From positions 91,224 to 155,223 of the IMG/VR virus record IMGVR_UViG_3300020057_000029: a stretch of 64,000 bases of DNA; one strand, given 5' to 3'. Below, piece after piece: positions 26,978 to 45,561 of the stretch (positions are counted from its first letter, which is position 1; the number at the start of each line of letters is the position of its first letter). A program made the position numbers and the translations under genes. The notes beneath the pieces are model-generated. The model searched no databases. It was not told the DNA's origin and worked only from the letters and a program-made list of their open reading frames with translations. Origin of the DNA: a virus.

Positions 26978-28363
26978 ATGATCGAACAACTTCAGTCACT
27001 TATGAAAGCTCTTGAGGCCGGTAGTTACAACGCCGCCCCAGGTCAGCTTGCGCAAGGTGCTGCTTTAATGGTGGAAGACCTTTCCCCAGTAATGCAAAAC
27101 GTAACGTTTGACGACAGCCATATCAAACTTCAAAAAATGCTAACTAGCAAAGATGTAAAAGCTACAATGCATCAATTCAACCGTCAACTTGACTATGGAA
27201 TCTTCGGTGGTTCTGCTCAATTTGAAGGCGGCATTGGTGAAGAAGATACCTCGAACTACGTTCGTGCTATCGTTCCCATGGCCTATTACAGCACGACTCG
27301 TCGTGTTTCTGTTGCTGCTAACCTCATCGGTGCTTTCGACGGCGTAAAAGCTGAAGACCGTGCTGCTGCTGACGCTGCAATGAAACTTGCTGGCGATATC
27401 GAATTCGACTGCTTCCGTGGTCAATCCGATTTCTCAAACGCTGGTGTGTTTGACGGTAACCCTCTCGCTGTAGCGAAAGTGCCCAATATGATTGGACTTG
27501 ACCAACAAGTTCGTCAGTCGGACGCTCAACAAAATACGCAAGATCTTATGTTTGCTGAGTACGGCTCAGACCAAACTGTAGTACTCTCTGCTGGTGGCGC
27601 TCTAACCCAGTCCATCATCGAAGATTCCGCAGTTCGTAGCTCTATGAACATGGGTAATGCTGATAAGCTCGTTCTCGATCCTATCAGTCTCTCTGCATAT
27701 AACAAGATCGCCCACGCTAAAGAACGTATCATGCTCGCTGGCTCTGCTCAAGAAGCTTCCGGCGCTCACTTACGTACTCAGTGGACCTCTTCGGCTATCG
27801 TATCACTTGAAGCTTCGCGCTTCTTGAGTGGTAAGACTCGTCCTGCTCGCGCTCGCGCATCAGCTCTCGCTGGTCCCGCTATCGCTGCTGCTGACGCTGG
27901 TGCCGCTGGTTCGCTCTTGGCCGCTGCTGCATACGTATACTATGCTACTGCTGTTAATGAACGTGGCGAAAGTACTCCTGGTGCATCTAGTTCTGTAACC
28001 CCTGCTCTTGCTGGTAACAAGGTCAATGTGACCATTACTGCAGTAGCTGGAGCTAAGTACTACAACTTGTATCGATCTGCCGCTGGTGGAAATGCAGCTT
28101 CTGCAAAATTCATTGGCAAGATTGCACAAGGTTCTGGCAACCCTGTATTCGCGGATCTTGGTAACCGTTCCCCTGGTTCTGTTACTGGTTTCTTGATTCA
28201 AGGTAACACCATGGGTCTTGCTCAGTTGGCTCCATATAGCAAATTGAAATTGGCTGTTAGTGACCTCTCACTTCCTGAGGCACACTTCAGATTCCTTTCT
28301 CTTGCTGTATACCAACCTCGCAAAAACGTTCTGATCGAGAACATTGATGGTCAACTTAGCTAA
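26978..28363 (+). CDS. Major capsid protein with an internal Ig/FN3-like domain
   Basis: The 461-aa protein follows the scaffold-like gene and has a strong AAGGAGA site and terminator, as expected for an abundantly expressed capsid gene. Its body (residues 1-290 and 405-461) shows HK97-type features such as LDYGIFGGSAQFEGG and a C-terminal FLSLAVYQPRKNVLIENIDG. Between about 300 and 405 there is an Ala/Gly-rich linker and a domain with YVYYATAVNERGESTPG and YYNLYRSAAGG, typical of FN3/Ig-like surface domains inserted into phage capsid proteins. Codon use is highly regular. Confidence 0.8.
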   Translation: MIEQLQSLMKALEAGSYNAAPGQLAQGAALMVEDLSPVMQNVTFDDSHIKLQKMLTSKDVKATMHQFNRQLDYGIFGGSAQFEGGIGEEDTSNYVRAIVPMAYYSTTRRVSVAANLIGAFDGVKAEDRAAADAAMKLAGDIEFDCFRGQSDFSNAGVFDGNPLAVAKVPNMIGLDQQVRQSDAQQNTQDLMFAEYGSDQTVVLSAGGALTQSIIEDSAVRSSMNMGNADKLVLDPISLSAYNKIAHAKERIMLAGSAQEASGAHLRTQWTSSAIVSLEASRFLSGKTRPARARASALAGPAIAAADAGAAGSLLAAAAYVYYATAVNERGESTPGASSSVTPALAGNKVNVTITAVAGAKYYNLYRSAAGGNAASAKFIGKIAQGSGNPVFADLGNRSPGSVTGFLIQGNTMGLAQLAPYSKLKLAVSDLSLPEAHFRFLSLAVYQPRKNVLIENIDGQLS

Positions 28364-28522: not shown

Positions 28523-30226
28523 ATGAAGGATAAAATATCAGAACTGTATAAAAAAGGTGTGAAAACATCAGATATAGCCATGGTTCTAAGGAAAACGCCT
28601 CAAAGAATTAATCAAGTGCTGATAGAGCTTGGCTTAAAGCAAAAAACGTTTGACTATTCGCCAAAAATAACTGCTATCATTGCTGAAAGCATTCTTGCTT
28701 TTAATAGAGATGGTCTGACCGTAACTGAAATATCAAAAAGGGTTGATCTAACAACCACTGGAATCAGAAATTTTCTTAAAAAACGTAGTATTTCAACAAA
28801 CGCATCCAAAGAAGACAGGTCTAGGCCTTGTGTTGTTTGTAAATTAGTGTTCACTCCGAAACACTCAGATGGGGTGAAAAAAAACAAATACAAGACTTGC
28901 TCTGTCGAATGTCGCTCTAAGCACGCTAGTGAATACAGAACGAAATATACAAAAGATGATATCGATAAGGTTTTAGAGCTAAAAAAGGCCAATACTGCCA
29001 ATGATGAGATTTGCCTGGCAACAGGGGTAAATATAAATAAGATCAAAGAGGTGATCAAAGAAAATGCCTTGTTTTTGGACCCAAAAGTGGCTCAAAAGAA
29101 TGCTTATGAAGCTAAGCTAAAAAAGAATACTCGTTCTATGGAAGAGATGCGAGCTTATTACGGAAAAATAGCCGTATCAGAAGAAAGTCTTGAAAAAACA
29201 AAAACAATTCTTTTGGAAAGGGGTTTTGAATATATAGATGGTTTTGAGGGCAAAAGCAATCCTTTTAAAATCAAATGTCTAGTCTGCAATAATATCAGAA
29301 CTACACATAGGATAAACAATGTGGTCAAAAACGCCTGTATGTTCTGTTCTGGATGTAAAAAAACTTCCAAAGCCGAAATAGAAATTGGGGCATGGGTAAA
29401 CTCTTTAAAGATAAAGGCTGAAAAATTCAAGTTTGAATACCGAAAAGATGGTGGCGAAATAGATGTTTTTGTTCCCCTTGTAAAGGTGGGAATAGAATAC
29501 TGTGGTCTTTATTGGCATAACGAAAATAGCCCAACCTCAAGAGGGGTGGATTATCATTTCAACAAAATGAAAAAGGCTAACAAAGAAGGTATTCGCCTAA
29601 TAACCATTTTCGAAGACGAATGGCTCAATAAAAAAGATCAAATTAAAGGATTTTTACGATCTGTTCTTAATAAAAATGAAATAAGGCTTTTTGCCAGAAA
29701 AACAGATTTGAGAGAGGTGCCTAAAAAAGAGGCCTCTCTTTTCTTAGAGGAAAATCATATCCAGGGTTCTTCTCAAATCGAATCGGCTTTTGGCCTTTAT
29801 TACAACGAAGAGCTTGTTGGTATTGTAACTGGCAACAAACATCACAGACAGGGAATGAAAAATCAATTCATACTGAATCGATTGGCCTTTAAAACAAACG
29901 TAAGTGTGGCTGGTGGTTCGTCTCGGCTTCTTAAGGCGCTAATTGGTTATGCTAAAAAGAATGGCTATTTAAAACTAGTCTCGTGGTCAGACAATAGGTG
30001 GTCCGAAGGTAATGTTTACGAAAAACTAGGGTTTGTATTGGAAGAAACCCTTGGCCCAGACTATTCTTACGTAGTTGGCCAAAAAAGAATCTCCAAGCAA
30101 TCTTGTACCAAGGAAAACTTGCTCAAAAAAGGAGCCATTGGTAACACAGAAAAAGAAATGGCCCTCAGTTTAGGATATAGCAGAATATGGGATTGTGGCA
30201 AAAAACGCTGGACCTTCGCCTTGTAG
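28523..30226 (+). CDS. Free-standing Vsr-like homing endonuclease (HE2)
   Basis: The 567-aa protein has two N-terminal helix-turn-helix-like segments (residues 1-85), a zinc finger (CVVCK...CSVEC, about 93-124), a third DNA-binding segment, and a CLVCN...CMFCSGC zinc site near 255-280. The Vsr-like nuclease follows (about 285-365: GEIDVFVP, IEYCGLYWHNE, RLITIFEDEW), then the same C-terminal GNAT-like domain as the paralogue at 10962 (FLEENHIQGS, GGSSRLLKAL, SDNRWSEGNVYEKLGF, RIWDCGKKRW). The two proteins share roughly their last 250 residues but not their N-termini, so modules have been swapped. It lies between the capsid terminator and a phosphoesterase. Confidence 0.85.
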   Translation: MKDKISELYKKGVKTSDIAMVLRKTPQRINQVLIELGLKQKTFDYSPKITAIIAESILAFNRDGLTVTEISKRVDLTTTGIRNFLKKRSISTNASKEDRSRPCVVCKLVFTPKHSDGVKKNKYKTCSVECRSKHASEYRTKYTKDDIDKVLELKKANTANDEICLATGVNINKIKEVIKENALFLDPKVAQKNAYEAKLKKNTRSMEEMRAYYGKIAVSEESLEKTKTILLERGFEYIDGFEGKSNPFKIKCLVCNNIRTTHRINNVVKNACMFCSGCKKTSKAEIEIGAWVNSLKIKAEKFKFEYRKDGGEIDVFVPLVKVGIEYCGLYWHNENSPTSRGVDYHFNKMKKANKEGIRLITIFEDEWLNKKDQIKGFLRSVLNKNEIRLFARKTDLREVPKKEASLFLEENHIQGSSQIESAFGLYYNEELVGIVTGNKHHRQGMKNQFILNRLAFKTNVSVAGGSSRLLKALIGYAKKNGYLKLVSWSDNRWSEGNVYEKLGFVLEETLGPDYSYVVGQKRISKQSCTKENLLKKGAIGNTEKEMALSLGYSRIWDCGKKRWTFAL

Positions 30227-31340: not shown

Positions 31341-31391
31341 CTAGAGCCAGGGCAAGAAGCTTAAACAGCTGACTTCCCTGGCTAGTTTTTT
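31341..31391 (+). terminator. Rho-independent terminator
   Basis: AGCCAGGG and CCCTGGCT form a stem with a loop of about 23 bases, which holds a nested AAGC/GCTG-type hairpin, followed by AGTTTTTTG. It overlaps the end of the opposite-strand kinase gene and ends the small Ala-rich gene's transcript. Confidence 0.75.
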
Positions 31392-32008
31392 GTCAATTTT
31401 TCCGCCAGATCACGAAGCTGTTCTTGAACACCTTCAACGCTACGTTCAGCGTCGATGAGCTCGACTTTCACTCCAGTTTGCTCAATATATTTCATAAAAC
31501 TTTGATATACGAGCTCTTGAAAACCAGGGCCTTTTGCTTCAATGGCATCAACAAACCCATTGCGTTTGCCACGACGTGCAAGAGCAGTTTCGGGAGCCAA
31601 TGACAAGAAAACCACCGCGTCAGGAAGCTTAGTGTGTTTAACAACAACATTCATGTAGAATTCTTGAGTAAACTCAGGATTTACGTTATGGTCAGTGTAT
31701 GCCAAATGAGATAGCCATCCACGATCACTTACGATAAAATCATACTTATCTGCCACAGTGGCATAGAAACGCTGGTTTTCATTGCGCATTGCAGCAAATA
31801 CATACTCCATCGATCTGCCGTCCATGCCAGCAGCTGGGTCCAAAATAAGCTTGCGTAGAGCTACGCATACTGGAATATGAGGACTGCCCACTTCTCTAGT
31901 GTCCAGAACTCTATAGCCACGTTCTTTTAGCTGATCGATAAAATAGGCCCAAGCAGTAGTTTTGCCAGAACCGTCAATTCCTTCAAATTCAATAACTCTT
32001 GCGTTCAT
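31382..32008 (-). CDS. tmk: Thymidylate kinase
   Basis: The 208-aa protein has the P-loop EGIDGSGKTT (9-18), a DR motif in SDRGWLSHLAY (about 95-105) and a LID-like segment ALARRGKRNGF near 140. It phosphorylates dTMP to dTDP for phage DNA synthesis. A strong AGGAGAA site precedes the start. It is the only nucleotide-metabolism gene in the window and is encoded opposite to the head and neck genes. Confidence 0.88.
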   Translation of the reverse strand: MNARVIEFEGIDGSGKTTAWAYFIDQLKERGYRVLDTREVGSPHIPVCVALRKLILDPAAGMDGRSMEYVFAAMRNENQRFYATVADKYDFIVSDRGWLSHLAYTDHNVNPEFTQEFYMNVVVKHTKLPDAVVFLSLAPETALARRGKRNGFVDAIEAKGPGFQELVYQSFMKYIEQTGVKVELIDAERSVEGVQEQLRDLAEKLTKN

Positions 32009-37746: not shown

Positions 37747-38880
37747 ATGTCTTTCGGCAACTCCTTTCTTAAAAAAGCGTTAGGCGAAGATTTTTTTGAA
37801 TCTTTGCAAAAAGTTGAGCTTTATAAGCAAGGCACTCGCACGACCGTAGATCCAGAGGAAATTGCCACGGCCCTTCAGATTGTACCAAGAACCTTGATGG
37901 CGTTTTTGGTGAACACTCTTTCTCCTTTAAAGGTAGGAGACAACAAAAGAATTCAGCTCCCTCTTCAAGAATCTGGCGTATTCCTCAATGCCACCAAGCT
38001 GGAGCGCGACGTTTATATTGGCAATATTGAGCAAGCCGGTAAGATTGTGACTGAGTATAAATTCAGATCCATTCCAGGGATTGGACTTATTATCATGTCA
38101 GCTTACGAGCTCTATGATATTAATAAGTTGATAGAGCCTCCAAAAGTGGAGGAAGACGTTGCCTCCAAAGTGCAACATATGATCAATGAACGTCTTGCTA
38201 TACATGATATAGTTGGTCAGGTGGTCGATAAGACTATGGCTGAACGTGAAGCGCTAAACAAGCTCATGCTCATGAAACTGACCAATGAGCTCAATGCTAC
38301 TAGGGAAGAATTAGAACGTGAAAGAGTAAGGCTTGCTGGCTGTGCCGTTGCTGCTCATGGTGGTGTAAAGCCTGGAGAACTCCAACCTGGTGACTACGGA
38401 CACTCTGCATCTTTGGACGATGTTCTACATCTTCGTGAAAAAAACGAGAAGTTTAAAAAAGACATTGCTAACGTGGCCAGAGTTTTTTCGGAAGATCCTG
38501 CTTCTAAAAGCGATGAGTATTTACGCGGCTTGGCCAACGGAATTGCTGTTGTTGATGCTACCATAAATGATAAGGAACCAGAATTCGTGGATGCACCCAA
38601 AAAAGGCTCTCAAAAACTAAAAAACTTTGTAGAGCGCCGAAAACAGCCTCAAGAATTTTCTATTCAAATGGCCAAAGGTGAGCAAGTTGATTGCCCTGAT
38701 TGTGGCAAAAACATCTTTGATGGCACTGTATTTTCTGGCTGTATTTGCTTTGGCGATGATCGCGAGCGCAAGGTTTTTGTTAGGAAAAGTGATACCGGAA
38801 TCAATGTGCGTTTCTCTAAAGGCTTTGATCCTGAAAATATCGAAATGCTTCTAGATATTCTTAGGAGAAAACATGGATAA
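37747..38880 (+). CDS. Zinc-finger virion-module protein coupled to the mCpol gene, 377 aa
   Basis: Not assigned to a family. Residues 1-130 are alpha/beta with PRTLMAFLVNTLSPLKVGDN. Residues 145-215 form a long coiled coil (NKLMLMKLTNELNATREELERERVRL). A zinc site CPDCGKNIFDG...CIC lies near 319-338, and the last 40 residues form a small domain. It overlaps the mCpol gene by 8 bases (ATGGATAA), so the two products are made together and may interact. It may tie the nucleotide-polymerase domain to the virion. Confidence 0.6.
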   Translation: MSFGNSFLKKALGEDFFESLQKVELYKQGTRTTVDPEEIATALQIVPRTLMAFLVNTLSPLKVGDNKRIQLPLQESGVFLNATKLERDVYIGNIEQAGKIVTEYKFRSIPGIGLIIMSAYELYDINKLIEPPKVEEDVASKVQHMINERLAIHDIVGQVVDKTMAEREALNKLMLMKLTNELNATREELERERVRLAGCAVAAHGGVKPGELQPGDYGHSASLDDVLHLREKNEKFKKDIANVARVFSEDPASKSDEYLRGLANGIAVVDATINDKEPEFVDAPKKGSQKLKNFVERRKQPQEFSIQMAKGEQVDCPDCGKNIFDGTVFSGCICFGDDRERKVFVRKSDTGINVRFSKGFDPENIEMLLDILRRKHG

Positions 38881-40549
38881 TATATTTTTAGCAATGGACG
38901 CAGATAACGCAGGAAGAATGGTCGGAAGAGCCGTTCTTGCTAACGATGTTGCTGCTCTTACCGAAGTAAGCTCCAGAATCGATCTGGGACAAGAAATCAT
39001 CGCCAGGTGGGTTCAAGAACAGGGCGGAAAAAAGATTTCTGCTGGAGGAGATGAGTTCACAGCCCAGATGCCGCCTGGTTCTATTGAAACGATTGAAGAA
39101 CTTCGGAAGGACTATCAATTTGCTACGAATCTAACAATGACCGTTGGCGTAGGCAAAGATTTGTCCCAAGCTGGCAAGTCTCTTATGGCCGGAAAACTAC
39201 GTGGTAAAAATATCGTAGTGATATTCGATGAAACCGTTGATTCTGAATTGCAGTCCGCACATCTACATGCTGGAGACGGAACTGGATCGGAAGAAGAAAA
39301 CAAGCTAGACGAAGCGTATCTTAGCGATGGTCAACAAAACGAGCAGGGAGAGGACGCCGCCAATGATGGTCAGGGCGAATTCTCTGATGGTAAAAATCAT
39401 GATAGCGAAGCCAATCGTGAGGCAAAGGGCGATGATGTTGGGCCTGGTTCTACTGAAGAAAGCCCAGGAGAGGGCGTTGAGCCTACCGCTACAGATCAAC
39501 AAGCTGAACAAAATGATCAACAAGCACAATTTAACACAGATGGTGAAGAGCCTGGTCCAACCGACCCAAAAGCTCAATCCAATCCCAAAACCGAAGGTGC
39601 GGAAAAGCTAGAGGAAAAATCTATGAACGATAAATCTAACGGAAACAGTGTAAAACCAAAAAACAAGGAGATCGTAAATGAAGGCTCTAAAGAAAAAGAT
39701 CCAAAAGCAGGTCAAGAAAATGTTGACAAGCTTAAAGAAAAAATTGATGAAGCCAGCCCCGAAAGCCAAAGCCAAGAAAAAGATGTAATGGAAAATATTG
39801 ACGATGCAGATCTTGCAACTGGCCATGCCGATGGAAAAGGGGTGGATGACAAAGACTCCGACCAAACTCCTGGTGACATGGGCCTAGGCGATGAAGCAGA
39901 AGCTGGGGCTGAAGAAGGTGTTGATCCTCAAGATCCTAGTGCTTCTGAAGAAGAAGGCGAAGAAGATCTTAATCCAGATCAGCTTCCTGGCGAAGACAAA
40001 GAAGACCCTGACTACAAAGAAGTTCTTGGTGACGCGATTGCCTCTGAACAAGAAAACATTCAAAAAGAAAAAGTCGTACAGATGGTAGCTGAAGCCCTAG
40101 AAGTCTTCAAAAGTCAGCGCCATATTTTGGAACGAGCTAAAGAACAAGCCCCTGAGCTCTATAACGGCTCGATCAAAATGCTTCGCGCAATGATTGAAAT
40201 GTCAAAATTGCTTGGTTTTGGCGATGGGCTAGAAGATCCTGAACACGATGCTCAGCAAAATGGCGCTGACTCCCTGTTTGGCAATGACGAAGACATGCCT
40301 GCCGATGACGAAGATATGCTTGCCGATGACGAAGATATGCTTGCCGATGACAAACCTTTCTTGGATGGTTCTGATTCTGAAGAAGGTGCGGAAGATAAAG
40401 AGAAGCCTGCTAGCAAACCTGAATTTCCTCCTAAGAAAGATGGTAAATCTGCTAAACCCGACGTTTCACCAGACGCTAAAGGAAAACCTAGTTTCCCCCC
40501 TAAAAAACCAGAAGGAAAACCTGCTGGAAAAAAGCCAGCGGGGCAATAG
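38873..40549 (+). CDS. mCpol/GGDEF-like nucleotide polymerase domain with long acidic tail (0-frame product)
   Basis: Residues 1-115 of the 558-aa protein match the mCpol (minimal CRISPR-type polymerase) plan, a small relative of GGDEF and Cas10 palm domains. AMDADNAGR (D9, D11) supplies the first metal-binding strand, ISAGGDEF (58-62) the GGDEF motif, then an ATNLTMTVGVG strand and the LSQAGKSLMAGKLRGKN helix. mCpol proteins synthesise cyclic oligonucleotides or are predicted to. From about 120 to 550 the protein is acidic and disordered, with Asp/Glu/Gln/Pro-rich repeats and a helical island (about 395-460). It lies amid virion genes. Its last codons contain a slippery heptamer, so a longer product is expected. 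Confidence 0.72.
   Translation: MDNIFLAMDADNAGRMVGRAVLANDVAALTEVSSRIDLGQEIIARWVQEQGGKKISAGGDEFTAQMPPGSIETIEELRKDYQFATNLTMTVGVGKDLSQAGKSLMAGKLRGKNIVVIFDETVDSELQSAHLHAGDGTGSEEENKLDEAYLSDGQQNEQGEDAANDGQGEFSDGKNHDSEANREAKGDDVGPGSTEESPGEGVEPTATDQQAEQNDQQAQFNTDGEEPGPTDPKAQSNPKTEGAEKLEEKSMNDKSNGNSVKPKNKEIVNEGSKEKDPKAGQENVDKLKEKIDEASPESQSQEKDVMENIDDADLATGHADGKGVDDKDSDQTPGDMGLGDEAEAGAEEGVDPQDPSASEEEGEEDLNPDQLPGEDKEDPDYKEVLGDAIASEQENIQKEKVVQMVAEALEVFKSQRHILERAKEQAPELYNGSIKMLRAMIEMSKLLGFGDGLEDPEHDAQQNGADSLFGNDEDMPADDEDMLADDEDMLADDKPFLDGSDSEEGAEDKEKPASKPEFPPKKDGKSAKPDVSPDAKGKPSFPPKKPEGKPAGKKPAGQ
40280..40353 (+). repeat. Short tandem repeat, 21-base unit, in the acidic tail
   Basis: Three near-identical copies of a 21-base unit encode the heptapeptide ADDEDML (one variant has MP), marking recent slippage expansion in the disordered region of the mCpol gene. 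Confidence 0.8.
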
Positions 40550-40562
40550 GTAGCCCCATTGG
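40511..40562 (+). promoter_or_regulatory. Programmed -1 ribosomal frameshift signal
   Basis: Four elements line up. An SD-like AAGGA (40512-40516) lies 11 bases before the slippery heptamer A AAA AAG (40528-40534), which is in the correct phase (0-frame codons AAA AAG). A 5-base spacer is followed by a GC-only hairpin GGGGC/GCCCC (40540-40544 / 40553-40557). The stem can extend with CCAG/TTGG around one mismatch. The 0-frame stop TAG lies in the hairpin loop at 40547-40549. The -1 frame stays open to 40761. This is the layout of the E. coli dnaX signal. Confidence 0.75.
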
Positions 40563-40761
40563 AAAACTACCGACCAAGCAAACCACCTCTCACGTAGCGC
40601 GTGAAACGTTGCCACCTGGAGCGATTAACGCTAAAGGGCAGCAAAAGGTTATCGACCCTGTTACTGGTAAAACCAGATTTATAGACAGGAAAGCCGGTGT
40701 AGTAATGAGTTCCACCGGAGTCCCTGTAAAATCGGGAGGCGTGAATGGCTCTCAAAATTAA
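40534..40761 (+). CDS. -1 frame extension of the mCpol protein (75 residues, made by frameshift)
   Basis: The frame reads ASGAIGSPIGKLPTKQ..., then VARETLPPGAINAKGQQKV, IDPVTGKTRFIDRKAGVV and STGVPVKSGG, ending TAA at 40761. The composition is that of a real folded peptide, not noise, and it fills what would otherwise be a 195-base gap in a very compact gene cluster. No ATG, GTG or plausible strong start exists near its beginning; an ATT at 40558 with GGTAG upstream is the only independent-start alternative. Frameshifting at 40528-40534 gives a 629-aa fusion. The end overlaps the start of the next gene (40745). Confidence 0.7.
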   Translation, partial: ASGAIGSPIGKLPTKQTTSHVARETLPPGAINAKGQQKVIDPVTGKTRFIDRKAGVVMSSTGVPVKSGGVNGSQN

Positions 40762-41497
40762 CTTAGATCTTGATAAGATAGCGGATCATTTCAAGGAGCT
40801 AGCCTACGAAGTAAAACAAGATTTAGAAAAAGGCGTTGGCAGCTTAGCTGCAATGACCCATGCTAGAGTTGCTGAGATAGCCAGTAGCGAATTGAATTCT
40901 TCTAGAAAAGAGTTTCAAGAATCTCTTGGTTTTGAAGAGATATCTCCTGGCGTTTGGGTTGTAAGCGTAGATGAAAAAGGTCTATGGGTAGAAGAAGGTA
41001 TTAAGCCTAATACGGATATGAAGGAAGGCCTTCTACGAGAAGGCGCAAAAACATCGAAGGATGGCTATAAGTACAAGTCGATTCCTTTTGATCACGGCAA
41101 AGCTCCTTCGCAGATGACACCCTATGCTAAAACGCTAGTAAGTCAGATCCGATATGTTTTAAAAAAAGAAGGTATTTCTTTTAAGAAGATTGAGAATGGT
41201 CCTAATGGGAATCCTAGGCTTGGTAAATTACACAAGCTAGACATTGATTCTATGCCACCAACCTCTCGGGCAAACACTGGAGCTCTACAGGGCCTAACGA
41301 TCTATCAAAGCAAAAATGCGGCTGGCAATGTTAGACGAGACATAATGACTTTTAGAACGGTTAGTGACGGTCCTAAGGGTCAAGGTAAATGGATTCACCC
41401 TGGAATGCAGGCTAAGAAGTTTTTAGACAGAGCAGCAGAATGGGCTTTAAAAGAATGGGAAGAAAAAATTCTTCCAGAGATATTAAAGAAATATTAA
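40745..41497 (+). CDS. Putative tail-completion/neck protein (HK97 gp10-like), 250 aa
   Basis: A GGGAGGCGTG ribosome site precedes the start. The N-terminal helix (LDKIADHFKELAYEVKQDLEKGVG), a GVWVVSVDEKGLWVEEG strand pair and the C-terminal WIHPGMQAKKFLDRAAEWALKEW resemble the HK97 gp10-like minor tail and completion family, in which W.hPG...fl..a is common. The position before the sheath gene supports a neck or tail-terminator role. Confidence 0.55.
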   Translation: MALKINLDLDKIADHFKELAYEVKQDLEKGVGSLAAMTHARVAEIASSELNSSRKEFQESLGFEEISPGVWVVSVDEKGLWVEEGIKPNTDMKEGLLREGAKTSKDGYKYKSIPFDHGKAPSQMTPYAKTLVSQIRYVLKKEGISFKKIENGPNGNPRLGKLHKLDIDSMPPTSRANTGALQGLTIYQSKNAAGNVRRDIMTFRTVSDGPKGQGKWIHPGMQAKKFLDRAAEWALKEWEEKILPEILKKY

Positions 41498-41498
41498 T

Positions 41499-42503
41499 AT
41501 GGGTATTTTTCAAGCAGATGTAGTTATCAAGACAATCGTGGAGCTCGCGTTCGATGACGTGCGCAAAAACGATTGGTTGGTTGATGATATTTTGTCTGAT
41601 TGCGTAGTAAACCCTTATTTAAAAGACAAGTATGGTCAATCCCAGATAGACGCGTGCAAGGAATGGTTAAAAAACAACCAGGTAGACGTTGCTCTTGGTT
41701 ATCTAGAAAATAACAAGCTTCCTCTAATAACGATCATTCTTGGGGCAAGCCAGGAGAAAGAAGGCATGAAATCCATGGCCGATCTTTCTACTGAAAGCAA
41801 GATTCTCTTGCCAAATGAGATTGGCAAACCGATCCCTTTTGTAATAAAACCATTTGTACCCGCTGGGTATGATCAGAATACTGGTATCGTTTCTTTGCCT
41901 CAGTCCGTTATAGATAAGGATTCTATTGCAGAAGGTATGATCCTGGTAAATCCAGAAAATGGCACGGGGTATATCATACAAGAAATTGTTCCAGAAGGTG
42001 TGCGTATCGAAGCTGGTATGGAAATTGATGCTACCCAGCTTGCAGTTGTACCCCAGTATCAATACTATGTCGCCAGAATAGAACATTCTTTTTTTCAAGA
42101 ATCACATACGATCAAGTGTACTGCGCACGGAAATGCTCAAGTATGTCTCTGGATGTGGGGTATAGTAAAATACGCCCTAATGCGCTACCGTGAAGGTCTT
42201 TTGGAAGCCAATGGCTTTTCTGAGAGTGTTCTTTCTAGCGGCGATTTGGCCCCAGACCCCCTGTTTCCTGGAGAGGGTGGCGAATTAGCATGGAGCCGAG
42301 CCATAGGCCTGACTGGACAAGTCGAGAATACATGGATCAAATCTCCACATCGTGTGATTGAAAAGATATCCTTAAAAGAGCTTACTCCAGGCGAAGCTCC
42401 TGGTTTTAGAGGCGGAATCAAGATTTTGAGCAATTTAGATTCTCCAGATTTTTTAGATAACAACTCCGAATGCTGGACAACTGTTGACGAAAATGAGGAA
42501 TAA
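41499..42503 (+). CDS. Virion protein, 334 aa (neck/tail module)
   Basis: Not recognised. It begins one base after the previous stop. The protein has a helical N-terminus (1-75), a middle beta region (GMILVNPENGTGYIIQEIVPEGVRIEAG) and a Gly/Pro-rich C-terminal third. Size and position next to the sheath suggest a tail-terminator or connector. Confidence 0.55.
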   Translation: MGIFQADVVIKTIVELAFDDVRKNDWLVDDILSDCVVNPYLKDKYGQSQIDACKEWLKNNQVDVALGYLENNKLPLITIILGASQEKEGMKSMADLSTESKILLPNEIGKPIPFVIKPFVPAGYDQNTGIVSLPQSVIDKDSIAEGMILVNPENGTGYIIQEIVPEGVRIEAGMEIDATQLAVVPQYQYYVARIEHSFFQESHTIKCTAHGNAQVCLWMWGIVKYALMRYREGLLEANGFSESVLSSGDLAPDPLFPGEGGELAWSRAIGLTGQVENTWIKSPHRVIEKISLKELTPGEAPGFRGGIKILSNLDSPDFLDNNSECWTTVDENEE

Positions 42504-43404: not shown

Positions 43405-45561
43405 ATGGCTCAAAGATTAGTAACTAGTTTCGTAAATACAAATGTACCTGGCGCTTACCCCAATCAAAGCGTTATTAGCAAGCCAGTAGGCTTTGCTTCT
43501 TCTGGTAACATCGTTATCATTGGAGAAGCTGATGGTGGTGACAACTTCGCTAACGTGGATCTGAAGAAGAATTTCTTTGGTCCTAGTCAAGCGGCAAAAG
43601 TTGCCCAACAGTACATCCGTGGATCTCTTGTAGACGCCATGAATGCACTTGCTGGACCTTCTGCTGATCCAGAAATTGTTGGATCTGCAAATCGTATTTA
43701 TATCTTAAAAACCAACTCTGGAAGCCAGGCTTCTGCCTTGGTTGATACCGATTATGGCACACTGAAGGATAAAAACTGGGGCTTGGATGGTAATAAATAC
43801 AATTTCAAAGTAACCCAAGTGGCAGCAGAGGCCGCTCCAGAAATTTCTGGTATTACAATCGTTACTTTTGGAGCCACCTTGAACGGTGCTTCTTTCAGTC
43901 TCCGCCAAAATGGTGGTGCTGCTGTTGTAATTGCTCTTAGCGGAATCGCTGGTGACCATGCGGACCAGGCCACTTTGATCATTGAACTTAACAGTTTGCT
44001 TCCTATTGGTGTCACTGCCTCTGCTGGCGCTGCTATTAATAGTATCAAGCTTGCTATGGCCGTAGATGCTGCTGCTAACCGTAAGGGTTGGGCTAAATCT
44101 CTTGAGCTTATCGATTCCACCCCAGGCGATCTCGCTGCTCTTGGACACGATGAAAACTTAATCGTTTCCGCTCAAGAAGCTGAAATTGAACTTTCCATTG
44201 CTCGCGCCGATACGAATCTAAGCGAAGTATGGGATATCGATGCTGAAGTTGCCTTTCAAATTGGATATCTTGGCACAACCGCTACTATGACCATAAATCA
44301 ATCGGCTAAGACCCTAACCACTACCGTAACAGGTGGTGCTGGTAGTAACTTGAGCTTAAGTCTGGCGAACTTTGCAACCCTTGGAAATTTGTCTGCTTTC
44401 ATTGCTACTCAACCTGGATACTCTGCTGCTATTCCGGCTGCATCATTGCAATTGGCACCTTCTTCCTTGGACGCTGTTACTGCAATCGGTATCGGCGCAA
44501 GTGTTGCTGGTGACATGCCTGGACGTGTAAAACGCGGTCTCTATGATTTCAAAGTATCTGTTGGTCAATCTCGCGCTCTTGCTTTTACTGCAATTGCCCA
44601 AGCTGGCCTGCCTGATGCTTCTGCTACCGCCTACTTAGCAGGTGGTCTAAAGGGCGCAACTACGGCTGCTCAAGTTGCCGCTGCTATCGCAAAGCTTTCT
44701 GGTCTATCTGTGAACATTATTGTTCCCCTGTTTTCCCGCGACGCTAGTGCCGATATCGCTGACGCTTTAACTGACAGTGCTTCAACCTATACAATTGATG
44801 CTATTCACGCTCTTGTGAAAACTCATTGCTTGACCTATTCAACCCCTAAACTTAAGAAACATCGCTCTGCAGTGCTTTCTTTCTGGGGCACCTTTGCTCA
44901 GGCCCAACAAAAAGCTCAACAGTTGGCCCAATACCGTTGTGCCATGACCATGCAACGTGCTACTCAAGTTAGCTCTACTACAAACCAAAGTGAAGTTTTC
45001 TTGCCCTGGATGAATGCGGTAATCGCAGCTGGAATGCAAGCTGGTGGTTTTTATAAAGCTATTGTCAATAAGCTTGCTAACGTGATTAGCTTTGAAGATC
45101 CTGCTGGATTTGATTCTGGTGACCCAGACGATAACAGCACTGCACTCGACGCTGGCCTGATGTTCTTGACTCAAGAAGACAATGATGGCCCTCGTTGGGT
45201 TTCTGACCAAACCACCTATGGTTTTGATACGAACTTTGTATACAACAGCTTCCAAGCGGTATACTTGTCCGATTCTCTAACCTTAGACCTTGCCTCTAGC
45301 TTTCAAAAAGCTTTTACTGGCAAAAACGTAGCAGATATCGATGCAGGTGCCGCTCGCGGATTCTTGCACCAGAAGATGGCTGAATACAAGCGTCTAAAAA
45401 TGATTGCTTCCAGTGTTGATGCTCCCTTGGGCTTCAAAAACGAAAATGTTGTAGTTGCCCCCCCAGAACTCGATATCGCTGTTGAAGTAAAACTCGCTAC
45501 TGCGATTTACTTTATACCAATTGATGTGAGTTTCTCGCAAGTAATTCAGACATCGGCTTAA
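43405..45561 (+). CDS. Tail sheath protein
   Basis: The 718-aa protein is followed by a tail tube gene, the usual sheath-tube pair. The N-terminus (SVISKPVGFASSGNIVIIGEADGG) and the gene-18-like C-terminal domain (INKLANVISFEDPAGF region; FLHQKMAEYKRLKMI; final strand VAIYFIPIDVSFSQVIQTSA-like beta-strand) are typical of contractile sheath subunits. The middle is an Ala/Ser/Thr-rich expansion (about 150-430) that would lie on the sheath surface. It shows the phage has a contractile tail. A GAGGAG ribosome site precedes the start. Confidence 0.85.
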   Translation: MAQRLVTSFVNTNVPGAYPNQSVISKPVGFASSGNIVIIGEADGGDNFANVDLKKNFFGPSQAAKVAQQYIRGSLVDAMNALAGPSADPEIVGSANRIYILKTNSGSQASALVDTDYGTLKDKNWGLDGNKYNFKVTQVAAEAAPEISGITIVTFGATLNGASFSLRQNGGAAVVIALSGIAGDHADQATLIIELNSLLPIGVTASAGAAINSIKLAMAVDAAANRKGWAKSLELIDSTPGDLAALGHDENLIVSAQEAEIELSIARADTNLSEVWDIDAEVAFQIGYLGTTATMTINQSAKTLTTTVTGGAGSNLSLSLANFATLGNLSAFIATQPGYSAAIPAASLQLAPSSLDAVTAIGIGASVAGDMPGRVKRGLYDFKVSVGQSRALAFTAIAQAGLPDASATAYLAGGLKGATTAAQVAAAIAKLSGLSVNIIVPLFSRDASADIADALTDSASTYTIDAIHALVKTHCLTYSTPKLKKHRSAVLSFWGTFAQAQQKAQQLAQYRCAMTMQRATQVSSTTNQSEVFLPWMNAVIAAGMQAGGFYKAIVNKLANVISFEDPAGFDSGDPDDNSTALDAGLMFLTQEDNDGPRWVSDQTTYGFDTNFVYNSFQAVYLSDSLTLDLASSFQKAFTGKNVADIDAGAARGFLHQKMAEYKRLKMIASSVDAPLGFKNENVVVAPPELDIAVEVKLATAIYFIPIDVSFSQVIQTSA

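Follow-up and report, generated by a model that had tools for sequence, protein, structure and literature searches.

Well-supported and conserved programmed frameshifts are few in bacteria and phages outside the tail-assembly chaperones, capsid extensions and transposases. In E. coli dnaX, an A AAA AAG slippery site is accompanied by an upstream SD sequence and a 3′ stem-loop, and the two products, tau and gamma, differ by their C-terminal part. Tail-assembly chaperones (lambda G/GT; Mu, with a −2 shift) are products of tailed-phage late genes with an X XXA AAG-type site, which in lambda is G GGA AAG, and their frameshift lies in small overlapping ORFs immediately 5′ of the tape-measure gene. 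Atkins et al. (PMC5009743) describe −1, −2 and +1 frameshifts used by different phages in these chaperone genes, including the −2 frameshift of phage Mu, and give a 30:1 ratio for the lambda G and GT products. They also state that the frame roles in dnaX are reversible between species and, with dnaX as the example, that such a reversal is possible at efficiencies close to 50% (PMC5009743). A third group comprises the Ig-like extensions of phages T3, A2, A118 and PSA, in which, according to the same authors, a C-terminal domain is added via a −1 shift, a +1 shift or an in-frame fusion (PMC5009743).

The protein considered here has its closest described counterpart in Panoptes OptS of Klebsiella, with which it shares the mCpol fold. 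PMC12657218 identifies D6 and D57 as the metal-binding catalytic residues of OptS, and reports that it crystallised as a putative tetramer whose protomers share binding pockets. PMC12657230 and PMC10885494 were also consulted. In the open-licence papers searched, few of which deal with mCpol, neither an mCpol frameshift in a phage nor a programmed frameshift associated with a cyclic dinucleotide in a phage was found.

The mCpol gene of the window

The window is the whole stretch of 64,000 nucleotides that was analysed, corresponding to positions 91224-155223 of a 155,223-bp virus record. Its relevant features, all on the plus strand, are as follows.

26978..28363, +: major head protein, 11 kb upstream of mCpol (phrog_752, E 4.3e-40)
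37747..38880, +: gene of 377 aa directly upstream, overlapping the mCpol start (ORF; neighbour survey)
38873..40549, +: mCpol gene, 0-frame product (short form), 558 aa (ORF; Pfam PF18182)
38885..39226, +: mCpol (minimal CRISPR polymerase) domain (Pfam, alignment, predicted fold, structure match)
40512..40516, +: SD-like AAGGA, 11 nt ahead of the slippery site (sequence)
40528..40534, +: slippery heptamer A AAA AAG, in phase (GGA AAA AAG) (sequence)
40534..40761, +: −1 frame C-terminal domain, 75 aa followed by TAA (40759-40761) (frame translation; homologues)
40535..40562, +: hairpin, −15.9 kcal/mol over 40 nt (predicted fold)
40547..40549, +: 0-frame stop TAG, inside the hairpin loop (sequence)
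40745..41497, +: next gene, 250 aa, overlapping the end of the −1 frame (ORF; neighbour survey)
41499..42503, +: gene of 334 aa with a weak tail-terminator match, below cutoff (Pfam; neighbour survey)
43405..45561, +: tail sheath protein (phrog_279, E 1.1e-27)

The AAGGA, the in-phase heptamer, the GC hairpin and the TAG in its loop are all present where the original prediction had located them, and its description of a “textbook” frameshift is apt for the anatomy of the signal. Its claim that the −1 frame encodes 75 residues without a usable start is also borne out, as translation continues to the TAA and no ATG, GTG or TTG occurs in the window between the upstream stop of this frame and the C-terminal domain. 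The hairpin had been credited with 10 possible pairs; a GC stem does lie there, but the fold gives nine pairs, one of them G-U, and one mismatch. The inner stem pairs GGGGC (40540-40544) with GCCCC (40553-40557) around the loop AATAGGTA, and the outer pairs join CCAG (40535-40538) to TTGG (40559-40562). The proposed 5-base spacer, which is the CCAGC (40535-40539) between the heptamer and GGGGC, is true of the inner 5-bp GC stem, but shrinks to zero if the outer four pairs form.

The rarity of this arrangement was assessed by a scan for in-phase X XXY YYZ sites (Y = A or T) in 69 non-overlapping ORFs of the window, comprising 18,591 codons. There are 107 such sites. In two cases the next 40 nt fold at −15 kcal/mol or lower, and of these two only the mCpol site has an SD-like core. 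The signal at the mCpol junction is more than would be expected by chance in the window. The other strongly folded site, AAAAAAC at 31391 on the minus strand, lies three codons before the stop of the ORF 31382-32008 and precedes a hairpin of −22 kcal/mol; together they probably form a terminator. No second frameshift was evident near the tail genes of the window when the three frames were read.

The 558-aa product comprises the mCpol domain, an acidic linker, a conserved helical-looking stretch and a Pro/Lys-rich end. The match to Pfam PF18182 spans residues 5-118 (E 3.4e-9; 37.5 bits, above the cutoff of 26.4), and the structures that best match the domain model (pLDDT 94) are those solved for Panoptes OptS (Foldseek TM 0.86-0.88, normalised by target length). 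These structures, 9nwn included, score Z 17.4-18.3 (9pd0, Z 18.3) compared to 14.3 for the next entry. D9 and D60 of the window protein align to the catalytic D6 and D57 of OptS, and these two metal-binding aspartates are invariant in 26 of 26 aligned family rows; in most rows, Ser occupies the place of the adenine-selecting S30 of OptS. The gene is thus an mCpol by Pfam and predicted fold, with a catalytic activity that is inferred only, in the absence of an enzyme assay.

The window encodes GGDE at 39044-39055. The residue that follows GGD, the motif with the catalytic Asp, is E in most close relatives and Q in seven of 31 (L005, L019, L023, L024, L025, L035 and L100), a change that may alter the activity or the product. 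The acidic linker of 28 of the 31 close relatives (e.g., L002, L003 and L005) contains CxxC pairs, often CPYC and up to seven of them, which resemble zinc knuckles. These pairs are absent in the window (39300-40400), in L034 and in L019.

Among the 45 loci examined, a homologue of the 250-aa gene lies downstream of mCpol in every one and a homologue of the 334-aa gene in 43; a tail sheath gene was seen in 31, and several of the loci stop short of it. Given these conserved neighbours, with the tail sheath gene downstream and the head gene upstream, mCpol is regarded as a fixed gene of the virion module. Location of the protein itself in the virion is inferred and has not been shown. No match to a 2TM-beta-type effector was found among the flanking genes scanned, for which Pfam and PHROGs profiles only were used, without a dedicated 2TM-beta or transmembrane search. 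Beside the major head gene, an ORF of 567 aa (28523-30226) matches PHROGs homing/HNH endonuclease families and has a GNAT acetyltransferase domain above cutoff, with Mom just below cutoff. Small ORFs also occur between the conserved genes downstream of mCpol in L003 (6956-7525 and 8579-9157) and L005 (9586-10116), and by their motifs these resemble GIY-YIG or other homing endonucleases.

Relatives with split and fused genes

Relatives were collected by scans with the C-terminal domain, with mCpol and of genome contigs. A total of 33 distinct contigs, counting the window, join an mCpol gene to the same C-terminal domain, which lies in the −1 frame in 17, in the +1/−2 frame in five and is fused in frame in 11. 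Loci identical to others over 530 nt at the junction (L001, L004, L021, L043, L044 and L083) were dropped before counting; L021, which equals L022 over these 530 nt, is kept among the 18 −1 loci mentioned below and removed for the 17 distinct ones. Overlapping copies of the same contig, found by more than one scan, were counted once, and L049, which is cut off, was not used. L012 and L074 are cut at the contig start, leaving mCpol itself out of view and the domain following the linker, and both were counted. The genome-contig scan contributed two loci, L121, which was used, and L122 (31% mCpol match), which was excluded from all counts. In phage records, blastn of the window gene and tblastn of its C-terminal peptide and of its mCpol protein gave no match; phage Mx1 was reached there only by the mCpol of relatives, not by that of the window.

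Conservation of the heptamer and hairpin had been suggested as a check on the original prediction, and in relatives both appear again at the corresponding alignment position. The overlap of 17 of the 18 −1 loci (16 of 17 distinct) contains an in-phase X XXA AAN; this is A AAA AAG in the window, and the other 16 have C CCA AAG or C CCA AAA. The exception, L034, lacks a canonical heptamer and has only GGC CCC CAG, with a fold of −14.9. The 0-frame stop usually follows 9-12 nt past the site (0-27 overall). Folds over 40 nt reach −12 or better in 13 of the 17 −1 loci scored, and the predicted hairpins are weak (−5 to −9) in L020, L021/L022 and L024. An SD-like core accompanies 15 of the 18 loci; none was found in L020 and L024, nor in L077 of the +1/−2 type. 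This criterion is loose, being satisfied by 31-78% of recoded controls. It should be kept in mind that near-relatives are not independent, and that the slippery sites were located by inspecting the junction, which makes the shuffle figures given below post hoc.

In the five +1/−2 loci (L002, L014, L029, L077 and L078), NCC CCA CAG is found shortly before the stop, and in four of them AGGAGG stands exactly 12 nt ahead of CCCCACAG. The main stem lies 6 nt downstream, with folds of −10.6 to −22.8. A −2 slip at CC CCA CAG would allow CCA to re-pair as CCC (Pro) and CAG to re-pair as CAC at the first two Gln bases, the third being mismatched. A +1 slip was rejected, as NCC to CCC, CCA to CAC and CAG to AGC all fail to re-pair. 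A −2 slip would also give L002 and L014 a junction of the same length as in the −1 and fused forms, L029 having an insert. Because only −2 re-pairs and the junction length agrees in L002 and L014, a −2 mode is inferred for all five relatives from these codons and lengths, the direction being unmeasured.

Of the 11 distinct fused relatives, six (L003, L011, L013, L018, L030 and L031) keep an in-phase site, C CCA AAR or A AAA AAG, together with a hairpin, and five of these six also have an SD-like core (not L018, under the rule of the script). A −1 slip in the six would stop after 1, 14, 14, 1, 2 and 2 residues, respectively. Given the retained site and hairpin and this early −1 stop, slipping in these genes would, as happens in E. 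coli dnaX, give the shorter product. Chance was evaluated by synonymous recoding with the codon use of each locus (3000 trials each), at sites chosen after being seen. The joint chance of a site and an equally strong fold is 0/3000 for L003, 0.012 for L011, 0.003 for L013, 0.0003 for L018, 0.005 for L030 and 0.007 for L031. The other five fused relatives (L009, L019, L023, L052 and L076) have no slippery site and no strong fold (−4.4 to −10.3).

More distantly, 13 contigs and Myxococcus phage Mx1 (L123) continue in frame into a similar C-terminal stretch; the part scanned contains neither X XXA AAN nor X XXT TTN in any of these 14. The kinship of the distant stretch rests on position and alignment, as the profile reached only two of the 14 (E 5.7e-4 and 4.9e-3). 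The Mx1 gene (L123 8001-9407; OR576727.2, WNM70340.1), annotated as “hypothetical protein”, is an mCpol with the fused C-terminal stretch, and in this cultured phage it has the same downstream neighbours as in the rest of the family. L121 sits in a MAG labelled Deltaproteobacteria (Myxococcota), which together with Mx1 hints at Myxococcota hosts.

A tree of 31 close and five distant rows, with many weak inner branches, requires 11 changes of architecture, where the least possible is four. The rows nearest to the window are two −2 phages and two fused phages with the signal.

Stem pairing was examined in seven loci picked for a shared 9-bp stem and 4-nt loop (two −1, two −2 and three fused). 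Every one of the 63 stem cells is paired; paired changes occur in two of the base pairs, with five cells altered on both sides, and this was equalled by one of 500 shuffles. The hairpin is partly due to the coding of a PIGxPIG stretch, whose CCNATNGG codons are self-complementary. The paired changes fall at third codon positions of this stretch and are therefore not forced by coding. A hairpin that is purely a by-product of PIGxPIG is countered by these changes and by the different stems of L025, L029, L041, L045 and L075.

Explanations for the split gene

Judged from the conserved signal and the lack of alternative starts, a programmed −1 ribosomal frameshift at the mCpol junction is very probable, a grading that covers the frameshift and not the docking role discussed below. 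Slippage and its efficiency remain inferred, with no product, ribosome profile or reporter available. Part of the ribosomes would stop at the TAG (40547-40549) and release the 558-aa mCpol. Others, slowed by the GC hairpin and by pairing of AAGGA with the anti-SD, would slip at GGA AAA AAG into the −1 frame and add the conserved C-terminal domain of ~75 aa, making the long mCpol. Apparently, mCpol is maintained by the phages in two forms, one having the C-terminal domain and one lacking it.

The rival that survives best, though unlikely, accepts the frameshift as real but regards it as inefficient and of minor use, a relic of switching between fused and split genes. The C-terminal domain has no known function. 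It has no PDB sequence match, no Pfam match and no convincing PHROGs match, and its fold is poorly modelled (pLDDT 69), with no significant BFVD match (best E 0.47). Moreover, the signal is lacking in five of the 11 fused close relatives and in all 14 distant ones, so that making both forms is not a universal need. A mere leftover, however, would hardly be kept or rebuilt in many lineages with different stems and three slip modes, or kept in fused genes, where its only effect is loss of the long product. A role as a general targeting tag was considered for the domain and not supported, as its profiles matched no further ORF in the loci beyond a weak partial match in L026 and L027. There, a piece like the last half of the domain (L026 6998-7099 and L027 387-488; 43% over 35 residues) lies within a different, longer ORF, and neither locus has an mCpol match. 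The role of the domain is inferred only.

There is little room for a split produced by decay or by a sequencing or assembly indel, with the −1 stretch as the remnant of a broken fused gene. A single indel could make such a split, since the deep relatives and 11 close ones are fused in one ORF, but 22 distinct contigs are split, five identical split-contig pairs agree exactly at the junction, and a slip site underlies all the splits but that of L034. Codon comparisons indicate purifying selection on the domain, with dN/dS below 0.5 in 116 of the 117 pairs with dS<2, although dS is near saturation in most pairs. This selection also acts between split genomes (dN/dS of 0.05 for L020/L022 and 0.11 for L041/L042), which is not expected of a remnant.

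It is just as improbable that the C-terminal domain is translated alone, through internal initiation or reinitiation after the TAG. Coupled reinitiation is common in phage operons, and the frame of the domain does overlap the end of mCpol. An in-frame ATG is present in L100, and some start codon lies upstream in the frame of the domain in all five +1/−2 loci. Nevertheless, 17 of the 18 −1 loci, the window included, have no ATG, GTG or TTG before the domain; relatives whose downstream frame has its own ATG and ribosome site, which would have refuted the original prediction, were not found. In addition, the fused relatives identify the domain as a part of mCpol, and separate translation leaves the slippery site in fused genes unexplained.

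Polymerase slippage has a run length threshold of about 8-9. Slippage on A runs is known, according to PMC5009743 and PMC3711429, and the window has six consecutive A, but a shift made by RNA polymerase, as in Thermus dnaX, can scarcely be entertained here, as most relatives have only CCCAAAG, CCCAAAA or CCCCACAG, with runs of 3-4 that are too short, and a downstream hairpin and upstream SD act on ribosomes.

Under programmed frameshifting, it is probable that both forms are needed in comparable amounts, since relatives make either form by slipping and many keep the signal both ways. The earlier suggestion that the proportion of the two products determines how many copies have the C-terminal domain agrees with this reversal of frame roles with retention of the signal; the −2 and reversed forms themselves were not part of that prediction. 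As the likeliest use, which is inferred only, mCpol would assemble as an oligomer in which the fraction of long chains sets the number of C-terminal docking domains turned towards a partner in the head/neck module. The putative tetramer of OptS with its shared pockets makes such a mixed-oligomer model natural, though untested. It can be proposed only tentatively, and with more doubt than belief, that a mixed oligomer of fixed ratio is anchored to the head/neck via the C-terminal domain, that a working cyclic-nucleotide synthase travels with the virion or acts late, and that selection holds the ratio while lineages repeatedly swap −1, −2 and reversed modes.

Comparison with known systems

The junction shares its anatomy with E. 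coli dnaX, from which it differs in the gene concerned and in that the long form is the frameshift product in the window. The mCpol family also adds C CCA AAR and a putative −2 site, with three architectures within one phage gene family.

Identity as a tail-assembly chaperone was rejected, as its criterion is not fulfilled: the tail sheath gene lies downstream of this gene, which encodes an mCpol. In contrast to the 30:1 ratio of lambda, role reversal suggests comparable amounts of the two products, and both an SD and a hairpin are present.

Unlike the Ig-like extensions, the mCpol C-terminal domain has no Ig or other profile match. Apart from the weak L026/L027 piece, it was seen only with mCpol in the scanned loci and is inherited with it, and some of the fused forms retain the shift signal. 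Compared to OptS, the phage mCpol is encoded in a virion operon and has an acidic linker and a C-terminal domain.

The frameshift therefore falls on an enzyme akin to the newly described Panoptes cyclase, within a virion module and in a family that includes the cultured phage Mx1 in fused form, and the same loci open the role of phage mCpol to testing. The −1, probable −2 and reversed forms in one gene constitute a natural series in which it can be asked whether frame or ratio is selected. The mechanism itself is known; its occurrence in an mCpol gene, and the presence side by side of −1, probable −2 and reversed forms that retain their signals, were found in none of the open-licence papers searched.
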